Program-made: the position numbers and the translations under genes
In this document: positions 4,608 through 13,717 of the stretch, one piece after another
How positions within the stretch are numbered: position 1 is the stretch's first letter
How the letters are laid out: every line of letters starts with the position of its first letter
DNA from: Fibrobacter sp.
Lineage (GTDB): Bacteria > Fibrobacterota > Chitinivibrionia > Chitinivibrionales > Chitinispirillaceae
DNA: 64,000 bases
NCBI GenBank assembly: GCA_012728995.1
Contig: JAAYEB010000212.1
Coordinates: 1-64,000 of the forward strand
Direction: 5' to 3'
Notes under the pieces: generated by a model
The model's input: the letters and a program-made list of their open reading frames with translations, nothing else
The model's database searches: none
Told to the model about the DNA's origin: nothing

Positions 4608-5933
4608 TTAAATACTCAGAACCATTTTTGCAATAAGGAAATAAATAATAAGCCCTGATGCATCCACCAGTGTAGAAATTATAGGCGCGCTCACTACAGC
4701 AGGATCTATTCCAATTTTTTTTGCTGTCATAGGGAGTAATGAACCGGCAAAAGCTGCAAGAACAGCAATGGAAAACAGGGATAATGAAAGTATTATTGCC
4801 ATATTAATCCCAAAAACGATACTCACAAAAATGAATCCCATTATTCCAAGAACCAATCCAAGCAAAGCACCTACACGAATTTCCCGAAATAAGACAGCAC
4901 CGGTATCGCCGAAACGAATCTCACCTAAAGCCATTGCCCTAATAATGATTGTTGCAGATTGAGACCCGATATTACCGCCAATTCCAATCAAAAGAGGAAT
5001 AAAAAGAGACAAGGTAAGAACAGATTCAAGAGTACTTTGAAAAAGATTAAGCACATTGACCGTAAGGGTTGCAGCCAGCGCAAGCACCAGCAACCATACA
5101 GCCCGTGTTTTTGTCAAGCGCAGCATTGATGCAGTCAGATACGGTTCACGAAGTGGCTCCGAGGCTCCAGTACGCAGATAGTCTTCAGTATCACTTTCCT
5201 GGAGAACTTCCATGGCATCGTCAAAAGTCAAAACACCAGCCAGTTTTTCTTCACTGTCTACCACAGGAAGAGCAATCAGACCAAGATCCAGAAGAAGTCT
5301 GGACGCCTTTTCCTGAGACTCATCAGCCTTAACAGAATATGCTTCTTCGGTTAAAAGTTTTTCGGTTGTTATGTTGCAATCTGCCAGTACCAGATCACCC
5401 AGATCAATGGTTCCAATAAATTTGTGATTTTGATCTATTACCGGGAGCGAATAGATAGCTTCAACACCCCTTCCGGAACTTCTGACCCGTGCTATTGCTT
5501 CGTTGGATGTCATATTAATTTCGAGGTCCACAAATTCCGGACTCATTATTCGGCCCACAGAATTTTCCGGATATCCCAGAAGAAGAGATGTAAGTCGCCG
5601 CTCCTTGAACGATAAACCCTCAAGCAGCTTTTTAGCCAATAATGGAGGCATTTCATCCAAAAGACGAGCCCTGTCGTCCGGTTCAAGCTCCTCAAGAATT
5701 TCACGCACCCGCGGTTCTCTAAGTATATTAAGGATCTGTTGCTGAACTGAAGGATCCAACATCTCGAATACATCTATAGCTCTGGCTTTAGGAATGAGCC
5801 GGAATGCTATTGCTCGCTGTTCCGGATCACTCCTTGTAAGCTCCTCAACTATTTCGAGAGTTCCATTTTCATGAAACCATTGACGAAGTTGTTTGAAATT
5901 CTTTTCACTAATTAAATGAGAAAACTCTGACAT
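4608..5933 (-). CDS. mgtE: Mg2+ transporter MgtE (standalone form)
   Basis: 441 aa. Homodimeric Mg2+ channel of the inner membrane. Superhelical MgtE-N domain ~20-125 (LEELEPDDRARLLDEMPP), tandem CBS domains ~130-255 that sense cytosolic Mg2+, and a five-helix pore domain ~275-441 with GIGGNIGSQSATIIIRAMALGE and STLVDASGLIIYF, whose Asp matches the pore aspartate known from Thermus MgtE. The upstream Shine-Dalgarno is weak. A small exported protein lies 53 bp upstream on the same strand and may be cotranscribed. A second, EIIA-fused MgtE is encoded at 11526-13373. Confidence 0.95.
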   Translation of the reverse strand: MSEFSHLISEKNFKQLRQWFHENGTLEIVEELTRSDPEQRAIAFRLIPKARAIDVFEMLDPSVQQQILNILREPRVREILEELEPDDRARLLDEMPPLLAKKLLEGLSFKERRLTSLLLGYPENSVGRIMSPEFVDLEINMTSNEAIARVRSSGRGVEAIYSLPVIDQNHKFIGTIDLGDLVLADCNITTEKLLTEEAYSVKADESQEKASRLLLDLGLIALPVVDSEEKLAGVLTFDDAMEVLQESDTEDYLRTGASEPLREPYLTASMLRLTKTRAVWLLVLALAATLTVNVLNLFQSTLESVLTLSLFIPLLIGIGGNIGSQSATIIIRAMALGEIRFGDTGAVLFREIRVGALLGLVLGIMGFIFVSIVFGINMAIILSLSLFSIAVLAAFAGSLLPMTAKKIGIDPAVVSAPIISTLVDASGLIIYFLIAKMVLSI

Positions 5934-8790: not shown

Positions 8791-9570
8791 ATGAACTTTT
8801 TAAAAATTATCGGTGTTTTCGTTATTATAAATACCTTATCTTTTCAGGTTTATTCCATTGAAAATGAAACAGGTTATTCTTTTGAATACGGAAAAAGACT
8901 CTTACTTGAAACAAGAGACAGAATCTACAATTTTGATGTCTTTGACACCTCTGTCAACCTGAATCTGGCCAGATGCAACTTGATATTTTCTCGTCAATCA
9001 AACAAACAGCTCGGTCTTTACTGGAACGCAAAGGTTAGTTATCTTTGCGGTCTGGTAAACATGGGAAAAAATGACAAAAAAATCGCACTTTCATATTTTG
9101 AAGAAAGTCGCTCGATATTAATAAATATCATAAAAGAATATGGAGAGATCAGCAATGCCTACACTCTGCTGGCTGATGTTTACGTTCAACTTCTTTGGTG
9201 CAAGGGATTGGGGTACAAACTGGCGAATTTGAGGAAACTCAAAGTCTATCCTGAAAAAGCACTCTCTTTAGATCCCGGCAATGTAAGAGCCAACAACTCA
9301 CTTGCCCTCTTTTGTATCAAGGCACCACAAACTCTGGGAGGAAATATTGACCGGGCAATAGAACTCTTAAAAAGTATAGATAGTGATGATAAAGCTGAAA
9401 TGTTTACAACCTATTACACTTTAGGTACAGCATACTGGCAAAAAAATGATCTTGATAATGCTATAAAATATATGCATTTAGCCCTTGAGCTTTATCCAAA
9501 TAATAAATGGGTAATTGATGATCTGAAATTAATCACAGAAAAATATTCATCAACTCAATCTACTCCATAA
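8791..9570 (+). CDS. Exported TPR-repeat protein
   Basis: 259 aa. Residues 1-23 look like a signal peptide (FLKIIGVFVIINTLSFQVYS). The C-terminal half has TPR helices, the clearest being TTYYTLGTAYWQKNDLDNAI with a following ALELYPNN, and an earlier EKALSLDPGNVRANNSLA. TPRs mediate protein-protein contacts; the partner is unknown. Just downstream of argC on the same strand, but there is no good Shine-Dalgarno before the ATG. Its 3' end overlaps the convergent VIT/CCC1 gene by 16 bp. Confidence 0.75.
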   Translation: MNFLKIIGVFVIINTLSFQVYSIENETGYSFEYGKRLLLETRDRIYNFDVFDTSVNLNLARCNLIFSRQSNKQLGLYWNAKVSYLCGLVNMGKNDKKIALSYFEESRSILINIIKEYGEISNAYTLLADVYVQLLWCKGLGYKLANLRKLKVYPEKALSLDPGNVRANNSLALFCIKAPQTLGGNIDRAIELLKSIDSDDKAEMFTTYYTLGTAYWQKNDLDNAIKYMHLALELYPNNKWVIDDLKLITEKYSSTQSTP

Positions 9571-10328
9571 AACCTCCTCAGTACAGCACCTGCCAAATAA
9601 GCCAACGCGGCAGCTATTCCACCTGTCATTAATGTCTGTACGCCAGATTTAATTACAGGCGTCTTGAGAATAATCCCCTTTACCAATCCTATTAAAAGAA
9701 AAGCAAGGGCAGTTATTACTGAACTCATAATAAAGCGTGTGATGTAATTAAAATTCCCAAACAGAAACGGAATCAGGGGAAGAATTCCAATTATTAGAAA
9801 AGCCCAAAATGTAACCATTCCAGCCATTATTGGCGATGCTCCCTTGAGAGGTAATCCATACTCCTCTGTTACCATCGTCTCAAGCCACAACTGCTTATTA
9901 TTCGTAATCTTCTCAACTATCTTTTCCAGTATTTCACCTTTAAATCCTTTATTGCTGAAAATCTGGCGTATTTCCTGTCGCTCTCCTCCAGGTATTTCCC
10001 TTATTTGCTGTTCTTCTTTTTGCCAGGTTTTATCAATCTTTTCCCGTTCACTTTTTGAACGAAGGTAATTACTTACTGCCATACTGAATCCATCAGCAAT
10101 CAGATTTGCAAATCCTAATACTATTATTACAATCCTGTCAAAATTACCACCTGTTGCTCCGGCAACAACAGCAAACGTTGTAACAGATCCATCTATCCCA
10201 CCAAGAACCGCATCTCCCAGATAATTGAAACCTTTATTTTTCCTTATTCTGCGAGCTATTGCTTTTTCATCGTGCTCAGCTTTCAGATCATTTCTTTTCT
10301 TCCAGAACAAAAATACTACCCCCCCCAC
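9555..10328 (-). CDS. VIT1/CCC1-family iron/manganese carrier
   Basis: 257 aa membrane protein. Conserved N-terminal block YLGDAVLGGIDGSVTTFAVV and GFANLIADGFSMAVSNYLRS are hallmarks of the VIT1/CCC1 family that exports Fe2+ or Mn2+. A polar metal-binding cytoplasmic stretch (~85-160, Glu-rich) separates the first two helices from three C-terminal ones (~165-255). The start is unclear. The first in-frame start is a GTG that reads straight into a run of eight G (10319-10326). A TTG at 10310 with the G-run as pseudo Shine-Dalgarno is possible, and an ATG two bases upstream of the G-run is out of frame with the gene. Confidence 0.85.
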   Translation of the reverse strand: MGGVVFLFWKKRNDLKAEHDEKAIARRIRKNKGFNYLGDAVLGGIDGSVTTFAVVAGATGGNFDRIVIIVLGFANLIADGFSMAVSNYLRSKSEREKIDKTWQKEEQQIREIPGGERQEIRQIFSNKGFKGEILEKIVEKITNNKQLWLETMVTEEYGLPLKGASPIMAGMVTFWAFLIIGILPLIPFLFGNFNYITRFIMSSVITALAFLLIGLVKGIILKTPVIKSGVQTLMTGGIAAALAYLAGAVLRRFYGVD

Positions 10329-11525: not shown

Positions 11526-13373
11526 TCAAGATGCAACCGGACCGAGAATGATTGAAGCGATACTTAAATAGATAAGCACTCCGAGAATGTCAGCCACCGA
11601 GGTTACAAGCGGACCACTTGCTGCAGCCGGATCCATTCTAAATTTACGAAGAATGAATGGCAGAGACAAACCGATCAGGCTTCCTAAAATTACTATAATA
11701 CTCATGGAAAGAGCAGTTACTACCCCAACCAGTACCCCAGAACGCCAAAATGCAATAAAAAAAACCGCTGTAGCCATAGATAAACCAATTACAGTTGAAA
11801 CCAGAAGTTCCCGCCACACTGCTTTGAAGTAATCATTCAATTTTAATTCTCCCAGAGCCATACTTCGAATAACAAGAGTAGCAGTCTGAGAACCAGCATT
11901 TCCACCGCTGGCTATAAGCAAAGGTAGAAAAAAAATGAGCGCCACAGCAGAAGAGATAAGATTCTCAAATCTGGCAATGCCTGCTCCTGACAGTATATTT
12001 ACAATAACAAGTATTACAAGCCAGGGTATTCGGCTGCTGTAGATAAGCCTCAATGGAGCTTTCAGATATGTAACTCCAATTGGCTGTATTGCGCTTCCTT
12101 TATGGAAATCTTCCGTAGCCTCTTCTTCTGCAACATCCAGAATGTCATCATTTGTAACAATACCCAAAAGAATGCCGTCCGAATCTATTACTGGCAGAGC
12201 ATACAGATCATATTTTTTAAATATCCGGACTGCATCTTCACGATCCTGAAGAGAATTGAGGTAAGCATAATGCCCATCCATTAGTTCTGATATCGGTGTT
12301 TTTGGTTCTGAAAGTATCATTTTCCTTAGAGTCAGATCATCTTTGAGAACTCCCTTCTCGTCAGTAACATAAATCATGACCAGTGTTTCTGAATCAGTTC
12401 CAACTTTTCGTATATGCTCCATTGCCTTTGCAACAGTCCAATGCTGCCTTACCGCAACATACCTGTTAGTCATTAATCTGCCAACACTGTCTTGTGGATA
12501 ACTCAACAAAGCGAGTGCTTCCTTACGCTCCTTATCACTTAACAGATTTAGAAGTTCCTGCATGACACGGGCAGGAAGTTCTTCAAAAAGTGCAGTACGA
12601 TCATCAGGAGGCAAAGCACTTATAACCTGTCTTGTTTCCTCCCTTGCCATATTCTCAAGCAAAAGGTTCTGTGAATCAATGTCAAGAAGTGAAAATACCT
12701 CGTCAGCCATCTGACGAGGTAAAAGCCTGTAAAGGACAATCCTGTCCATGTCTTCAACTACGGTAATCAACTCAGCTATGTCAGCAGCATTCTGTCCCGA
12801 AATCAAATTCCGAAGTTCATTTAATTTTTTCGATCTTAGCATCTCGATTATTTCTGGACGCAAGAGCTTGCTGAGAACAGGAATTGATGCAGATTCACCA
12901 TGCAAAGCTGGAAAAGAATACATTGCATCTATCCATTCATATAATCGCCTCTTGACTTCTTCAACATCTTCAAATTTGTCCAGTTCACGAAGGTCTTCCC
13001 GTTTTTCAAGGATTTTGGCTATTGAAGCTATCTCGTCAAGATAAGCTTTTGATGCTGTTTCAGGAATATAATAAAGAAAAATCAGATTAGCCTTTATCCC
13101 ATCAGTATAGTCGATTCCGTTTCTGCTCCATCCAATGACACAAACCAGACCACCACCTGCACTGGATCTGGCATGGGGAAACGCTATTCCATAACCAAGA
13201 TACGTATCTCCCATAGCTTCTCTTTCATGCACCTGATCAAGCAGATTTATATCAGAGTAAAATCCGGGTGTTTTCTGCATAACATCAGCAAGTTGGGACA
13301 AGGCACTCTCTTTATCCGAACTTTTAAGTTCAATTATCCGCTCGTCAAGAAGTGCTTTCAAGAGATACTGCAT
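11526..13373 (-). CDS. mgtE: MgtE Mg2+ channel fused to an N-terminal PTS EIIA (type 2) domain
   Basis: 615 aa, about 170 longer than a normal MgtE. Residues ~1-150 form a PTS EIIA-fructose/nitrogen domain with the phospho-accepting His in GYGIAFPHAR (His67), plus the family's FLYYIPETAS strand. MgtE-N follows (~165-295, ISALPPDDRTALFEELP), then CBS domains (~300-425, YALPVIDSDGILLGIVTNDD), then five membrane helices (~445-612) with SGGNAGSQTATLVIRSMALGE-type and TSVADILGVLIY pore motifs. The domain order suggests PTS-type phosphorylation or carbon/nitrogen state could gate Mg2+ uptake; this is inference. GAGGTTCAAT precedes the ATG. Monocistronic, 152 bp or more from neighbours. Confidence 0.93.
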   Translation of the reverse strand: MQYLLKALLDERIIELKSSDKESALSQLADVMQKTPGFYSDINLLDQVHEREAMGDTYLGYGIAFPHARSSAGGGLVCVIGWSRNGIDYTDGIKANLIFLYYIPETASKAYLDEIASIAKILEKREDLRELDKFEDVEEVKRRLYEWIDAMYSFPALHGESASIPVLSKLLRPEIIEMLRSKKLNELRNLISGQNAADIAELITVVEDMDRIVLYRLLPRQMADEVFSLLDIDSQNLLLENMAREETRQVISALPPDDRTALFEELPARVMQELLNLLSDKERKEALALLSYPQDSVGRLMTNRYVAVRQHWTVAKAMEHIRKVGTDSETLVMIYVTDEKGVLKDDLTLRKMILSEPKTPISELMDGHYAYLNSLQDREDAVRIFKKYDLYALPVIDSDGILLGIVTNDDILDVAEEEATEDFHKGSAIQPIGVTYLKAPLRLIYSSRIPWLVILVIVNILSGAGIARFENLISSAVALIFFLPLLIASGGNAGSQTATLVIRSMALGELKLNDYFKAVWRELLVSTVIGLSMATAVFFIAFWRSGVLVGVVTALSMSIIVILGSLIGLSLPFILRKFRMDPAAASGPLVTSVADILGVLIYLSIASIILGPVAS

Positions 13374-13717
13374 ATTGAACCTCGTTTACGGATTATTATA
13401 ATTAATAGAGCATGAGATTGATTCTGAAAAATACTCAGCACAAACAGTTTAATCAATAATTTACCAGCTTTTATTATACTTTATATACCTAAGAATTGCA
13501 TTTTAATAAATGTCTGATAGAAGAATTTCTAATAGTGTTATTGAAGAGATTAAATCAGTAAGAGCTTCTTTTGTAAAATGCAGCTCTTTATTCAACAGTT
13601 TGGTTTTTTGGCGCGGGTTTCCCGAGAAACTGAATTATACACATATTTTAAAATTCATAAAAGAAAGCAGCACACATGGTCTTCATAACCATTTTTGCGT
13701 GCTGCCAGCCGCCTCTG
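13374..13717. other. Intergenic region
   Basis: 344 bp between the EIIA-MgtE start and the end of the next minus-strand gene. It contains the terminator at 13667-13705. On the minus strand a TATAAT occurs about 95 bases upstream of the EIIA-MgtE ATG with no good -35. I saw no M-box-like Mg2+ riboswitch. Confidence 0.4.
13667..13705 (-). terminator. Intrinsic terminator of the 13.7-14.3 kb lipoprotein gene
   Basis: GCAGCAC...GTGCTGC outer stem with an inner ATGGT/ACCAT stem, 13 bases past the stop codon. On the minus strand it is followed by TTTCTTTT. Confidence 0.75.

Follow-up and report, generated by a model that had tools for sequence, protein, structure and literature searches.

The window, the 64,000-nucleotide stretch of Fibrobacter sp. 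DNA that we analysed, carries a gene in which a PTS EIIA domain is joined to a complete MgtE. Judged from sequence and gene association, the gene product is probably a Mg2+ channel carrying, in covalent linkage, an EIIA from a subfamily specialised for Mg2+ import, and the phospho-state of this EIIA would control uptake. The features of the gene, together with a second MgtE in the window, are as follows.

11526..13373, minus strand: EIIA-MgtE fusion gene, 615 aa, one open frame (Pfam/NCBIfam; 8 other fused homologues)
13380..13383, minus strand: GAGG, probable ribosome-binding site by sequence, a few nt before the start codon
12924..13373, minus strand: EIIA domain, residues 1-150, with PTS_EIIA_2 at 9-145 (Pfam; 214 bits with the subfamily profile in its own genome)
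13173..13175, minus strand: His67 codon, predicted phospho-acceptor (FPHAR), conserved in 34/34 subfamily members
13128..13142, minus strand: signature C78-x-x-G81-W82, then S83 (C, G, W and S each in 34/34 subfamily members)
13041..13043, minus strand: Tyr111, where classical EIIAs have their second active-site His (Tyr or Phe in all 34 members, His in 8 of 10 controls)
12489..12791, minus strand: MgtE N domain, residues 195-295 (Pfam MgtE_N)
12129..12293, minus strand: CBS domain, residues 361-415 (Pfam; Mg2+-sensor acids kept in comparison with T. thermophilus MgtE, 2yvx)
11559..11927, minus strand: MgtE transmembrane pore domain, residues 483-605 (Pfam MgtE; D595 is the Asp432 equivalent)
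4608..5933, minus strand: second, standalone MgtE, 441 aa, divergent, with several Mg2+-sensor acids replaced (ORF, Pfam/NCBIfam, tree)

The fusion gene reads from the ATG at 13373 to the stop codon at 11526-11528 on the minus strand, a strand that the preliminary description had left unnamed, with no internal stop or frameshift. In particular, no frameshift or assembly junction was found near codon 150, the weak point named in a preliminary description of this DNA. That description had also read the protein as a PTS EIIA domain with an intact His67 (GIAFPHAR) ahead of a complete MgtE, and all four Pfam domains (PTS_EIIA_2, MgtE_N, CBS, MgtE) were found far above cut-off. PTS_EIIA_2 (PF00359) matched with an E value of 6e-21 and 75.4 bits (gathering cut-off 27), and the NCBIfam model TIGR00400 (mgtE) with 410 bits (cut-off 232.75). 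The EIIA part reached 50.2 bits with the PtsN model TIGR01419, under its cut-off of 138.7, and was also under the cut-off of the NCBIfam FruA-IIA model. A scan for promoters and terminators around the gene gave nothing above shuffled expectation, and an Rfam scan of the window for the M-box and other riboswitches gave no match. A 257-aa VIT-family (Fe/Mn) transporter is encoded 1.2 kb from the fusion gene (window positions 9555-10328, minus strand).

Close relatives were sought in 84,980 species genomes, and seven full-length fusions came back, in Kiritimatiellae, Lentisphaera, Hydrogenedentes and WOR-3 MAGs. The eighth, L185, came from a profile search. This makes nine fused genes, from Kiritimatiellota, Lentisphaerota, Hydrogenedentota, WOR-3 and the window's genome. 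L018, whose contig breaks off just upstream of MgtE, is probably another. A tree built from 102 MgtEs united all nine fused proteins with L018 in a single group (support 100). The group adjoins unfused MgtEs of Kiritimatiellota/Verrucomicrobiota, and MgtEs from the phylum to which the window belongs branch elsewhere. A search of 167 further genomes of that phylum did not find the fusion. The preliminary description had named absence of the fused form from all relatives as a refutation; this does not hold, as the fused form exists in other phyla. Because the own-phylum MgtEs branch elsewhere and the other genomes searched in the phylum lack the fusion, the window's copy was most likely acquired horizontally. 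The same 0/167 count would suit an assembly chimera, or a ptsN-like gene that is read through into mgtE by chance. This candidate was ruled out by the eight further fused genes, which have the same architecture, come from independent genomes and fall with the window's gene in one MgtE clade; the uninterrupted frame also speaks against it. We give it practically no weight.

The clue to a wider family was that in three relatives the closest EIIA is a protein of 260-273 aa encoded right behind a P-type ATPase of 882-905 aa. At the three loci scanned the ATPase is MgtA, with 1041-1055 bits for TIGR01524 (cut-off 611). A subfamily profile was built from 8 fused and 3 MgtA-linked EIIAs and used to survey 168 genomes of the window's phylum, 388 sampled genomes of the phylum of the Kiritimatiellae MAG, 68 of the phylum of the Hydrogenedentes MAG, and a WOR-3-type phylum of four genomes, in which one member was found. 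Subfamily members scored 149.7-246 bits, and other EIIAs in the same genomes at most 96 among the matches listed. In the window's own phylum the gap was between at least 214 and at most 96 bits, and the lowest-scoring member outside it had 149.7 bits. In an EIIA tree, the subfamily was split from control EIIAs by a branch with support 100/99. By profile score and tree, the fused EIIA is a member of a distinct subfamily.

Of the 34 members collected, 25 are free and the other 9 are fused to MgtE. For each of the 25 free ones, the gene immediately before it, in the same orientation, is mgtA. Thus every member in the sampled set (three phyla, the named loci and the four-genome phylum) is linked to a Mg2+ importer, either physically or by operon. 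The free form is about 260-280 aa long, and about 20 of the 25 genes begin 0-6 nt past the mgtA stop codon, the usual distance being 0-4 nt, a spacing that suggests translational coupling with mgtA. Most free forms (L128:4756-5541 and 22 others) carry an extra C-terminal alpha/beta domain of about 105 aa with a conserved Cys near its end. This domain had no Pfam match. The free form was predicted with a pLDDT of 85, and Foldseek against the PDB matched its EIIA part only, with PtsN structures (3urr, 2a0j, 1a6j) as best matches. A weak fold likeness to the cytoplasmic domain of SLC4 anion exchangers (7x1i, 5jho; E 5e-3 to 1e-2) was also returned. These exchangers are eukaryotic, unlike the bacterial EIIA subfamily, and no phospho-His relay is known for their cytoplasmic domain. 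Behind a second mgtA of genome G031, a generic PtsN-like EIIA lies about 0.5 kb downstream (L238:2380-2919, minus strand), with a small membrane-type ORF between them.

The two forms of the subfamily differ in the company of mgtA. Among the 388 genomes, all 19 with the free form fell among the at least 40 with mgtA (p = 1.6e-21); these counts are minimum values, as scoring was confined to the best candidates of each genome. In the 27 genomes examined directly, mgtA was present in 18/18 with the free form and in 0/9 with the fusion (Fisher p = 2e-7); both p-values are inflated by the relatedness of the genomes, and the absence of mgtA is subject to incompleteness since the genomes are mostly MAGs. 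No genome across the surveyed phyla had both forms. The MgtAs with an EIIA partner formed one clade (93/95), apart from MgtAs without a partner. Rooting the EIIA tree on other EIIAs placed the fused clade (92/96) among the mgtA partners (89/92). The simplest history, which has moderate support from these trees, would be that the EIIA moved from the MgtA operon to MgtE.

For the active site, we aligned the 34 members with 10 other EIIAs as controls, nine from the window's genome plus E. coli PtsN for orientation. Every member (34/34) has the phospho-acceptor His67 and Pro66, and the nine fused proteins all keep His67 (GIAFPHAR). C78, G81-W82-S83, Y89 and Y101 are also invariant in the subfamily. 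At the CxxGWS positions, C and W occur in none of the controls, G in four and S in three. Glu114 is found in 33 of the 34 members and in 0/10 controls. The second active-site His, which is typical of PTS_EIIA_2 although a Pfam match does not depend on it, is present in 8 of the 10 controls and is Tyr or Phe in every member, so the phospho-chemistry may differ from that of a classical EIIA. This pattern would fit a terminal phospho-acceptor that does not need to hand its phosphate to an EIIB. With this substitution and a score far below the PtsN cut-off, the parallel to EIIA-Ntr drawn in the preliminary description holds as a functional analogy and fails as a family identity.

Partners for a phosphorelay are at hand. 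HPr was found in 27/27 genomes examined, with the fused or the free form. In the window's genome HPr has the GIHARPA motif and the regulatory Ser, and its gene is cut by a contig edge; five EI-type proteins are present.

The MgtE part appears complete. D595 (codon 11589-11591, minus strand) aligns with the pore Asp432 of T. thermophilus MgtE, and eleven cytosolic acids are kept by comparison with 2yvx (E225, D257, D377, E379, D389, D410, D413, E418, E421, D422 and D581). In T. thermophilus MgtE, these residues serve as pore, Mg2+-sensor and gate positions. Since the pore Asp and the sensor/gate acids are kept, the fused channel seems to have all it needs to gate itself by Mg2+. The fusion is like known MgtE in its N domain, CBS domain and pore and differs from it by the N-terminal 150-residue EIIA, which from its sequence looks like an added input on top of that gating. 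The standalone MgtE, which had been reported before, is a real gene. It is very divergent, with 31% identity to the fusion, and at least three of its Mg2+-sensor acids are gone (D214 to S, D226 to G and E255 to S, in T. thermophilus numbering). A division of labour between the two MgtEs, as the preliminary description proposed, is speculation.

In the mechanism that we propose, HPr~P would phosphorylate His67. Phosphorylated and free EIIA would bind in different ways to the N/CBS gate on the cytosolic side of MgtE, and this docking might raise or lower channel opening, in addition to the Mg2+ sensing of MgtE itself. Mg2+ uptake would thereby track the PEP/phosphorelay state of the cell, the presumed physiological signal. 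In relatives that bear mgtA, the same EIIA may act on MgtA in trans. An AlphaFold model of the fusion (pLDDT 54, from an alignment of 8 sequences) was too poor to show docking. EIIA proteins regulate sugar and K+ transport. In E. coli, unphosphorylated PtsN inhibits the K+/H+ antiporter YcgO (PMC11808508). By analogy with this pair, we lean slightly towards unphosphorylated EIIA restraining import. PtsN-YcgO is also an EIIA-2 type protein controlling a cation transporter, as is proposed here, but it consists of separate proteins and concerns K+, whereas the fusion is one protein and concerns Mg2+.

PTS-state control of Mg2+ uptake had been suggested in the preliminary description. It is now well supported at the level of association: one EIIA subfamily goes, in the sampled set, exclusively with two unrelated Mg2+ importers, no member has lost the phospho-His, and HPr accompanies it in every genome examined. 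One regulatory domain shared by two unrelated importers argues strongly that both are controlled by the same logic. Gene association alone does not prove direct control of transport; the EIIA might instead influence expression or stability.

The same observations can be read in other ways. The EIIA might be a non-phosphorylated ligand or metal sensor, whose rebuilt pocket (Cys78, Tyr111, Glu114, GWS) gates MgtE or MgtA by binding a small molecule or ion. The loss of the second active-site His in all 34 members would suit such a sensor, as would the new invariant C78, W82 and Y101 and the near-invariant E114. However, His67 and Pro66 are kept throughout, and HPr is always there. An EIIA of the same genome that is fused to a diadenylate cyclase (DAC) has lost its His (PQAR), so the retention of His67 looks selected. 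We therefore regard a ligand sensor as unlikely. A reversed flow of information, in which MgtE or MgtA senses Mg2+ and, through its conformation, determines how far the EIIA is available or phosphorylated, and the EIIA then reports Mg2+ status to the PTS network or other targets, seems less likely still. It would make use of the full Mg2+-sensing apparatus kept in MgtE, and it has a precedent of sorts in Salmonella, where the amount of EIIA-Ntr falls at low Mg2+ and EIIA-Ntr lowers PhoP-activated gene expression, with mgtA among the genes measured (PMC6456747). Against it, a tether to a membrane channel limits a role as free messenger, and no second target was seen in the loci.

Finally, the EIIA could have hitch-hiked as a stability, assembly or localisation module of Mg2+ importers, with no PTS-dependent regulation. 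The evidence is indeed one of association, and the free form has its extra C-terminal domain without assigned function, but the strict conservation of the phospho-acceptor and the co-occurrence of HPr in 27/27 genomes make this very improbable. Control of uptake by the phospho-state of the EIIA thus stays our preferred reading. In its larger form, the PTS would have a branch of its own for Mg2+, in which an EIIA phosphorylated by HPr was first an operon partner of MgtA, later became fused to MgtE in genomes lacking mgtA, and gates import by its phospho-state; for this form we find the balance even.

If such a branch exists, it would give a second example, beside LacS, of a bacterial transporter outside the PTS that is controlled through its own phosphorylation. 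LacS carries a fused EIIA-like domain that is phosphorylated by HPr (PMC10710835). Both are secondary transporters with a covalent EIIA domain, but LacS has an EIIA-Glc-like domain on a GPH sugar transporter, where the fusion has an EIIA-2 on a Mg2+ channel; the EIIA superfamilies differ and only the principle is common. Compared with PtsN/EIIA-Ntr, which also acts on ion transport, the subfamily shares the EIIA fold and the phospho-His and is set apart by its score, the Tyr/Phe, the CxxGWS signature and the membrane tether or mgtA link. MgtA is unrelated to MgtE; the partner gene in its 25 loci encodes the same EIIA subfamily as the fusion, but separately and mostly with the C-terminal extra. 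The constituent families and the transporter-fused EIIA of LacS were already known. New are the EIIA-MgtE architecture with its MgtA counterpart and an EIIA subfamily tied, in the sampled set, only to Mg2+ importers. A description of either arrangement was not found in the open-access papers that were searched, and domain databases may list the architecture. With the shared EIIA, point mutants can be used to test whether Mg2+ uptake is directly linked to the phosphorelay (PEP supply, carbon/nitrogen state).

The window's genome has 10 EIIA-2 domains, several of them on transporters. The carriers include MgtE, two Na/H-exchanger-type antiporters, a P-type cation ATPase, an amino-acid permease, a diadenylate cyclase and HTH domains. 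Since EIIA fusions are broadly used in this genome for control of transport and second messengers, a regulatory role of the MgtE-borne copy is more credible. The ATPase (1072 aa, Ca2+ or Na,K-type; L124:5315-8530, plus strand, G000 contig C82) has its EIIA at the N-terminus. The two antiporters and the permease have theirs at the C-terminus (L122:3640-5943, plus; L127:2843-5329, plus; L126:5502-7442, minus), and the EIIA of L127 has lost the PH motif. HTH-EIIA fusions occur in two copies (L123:5876-6523, plus; L005:1196-1927, minus), with HTH_17 assigned by Pfam for L123 only. In the cyclase (L120:3264-4655, minus strand, G000 contig C284), the EIIA with Gln in place of the phospho-His is fused to a DacZ-type sensor and the DAC domain; this protein is possibly a PTS-derived input to c-di-AMP.
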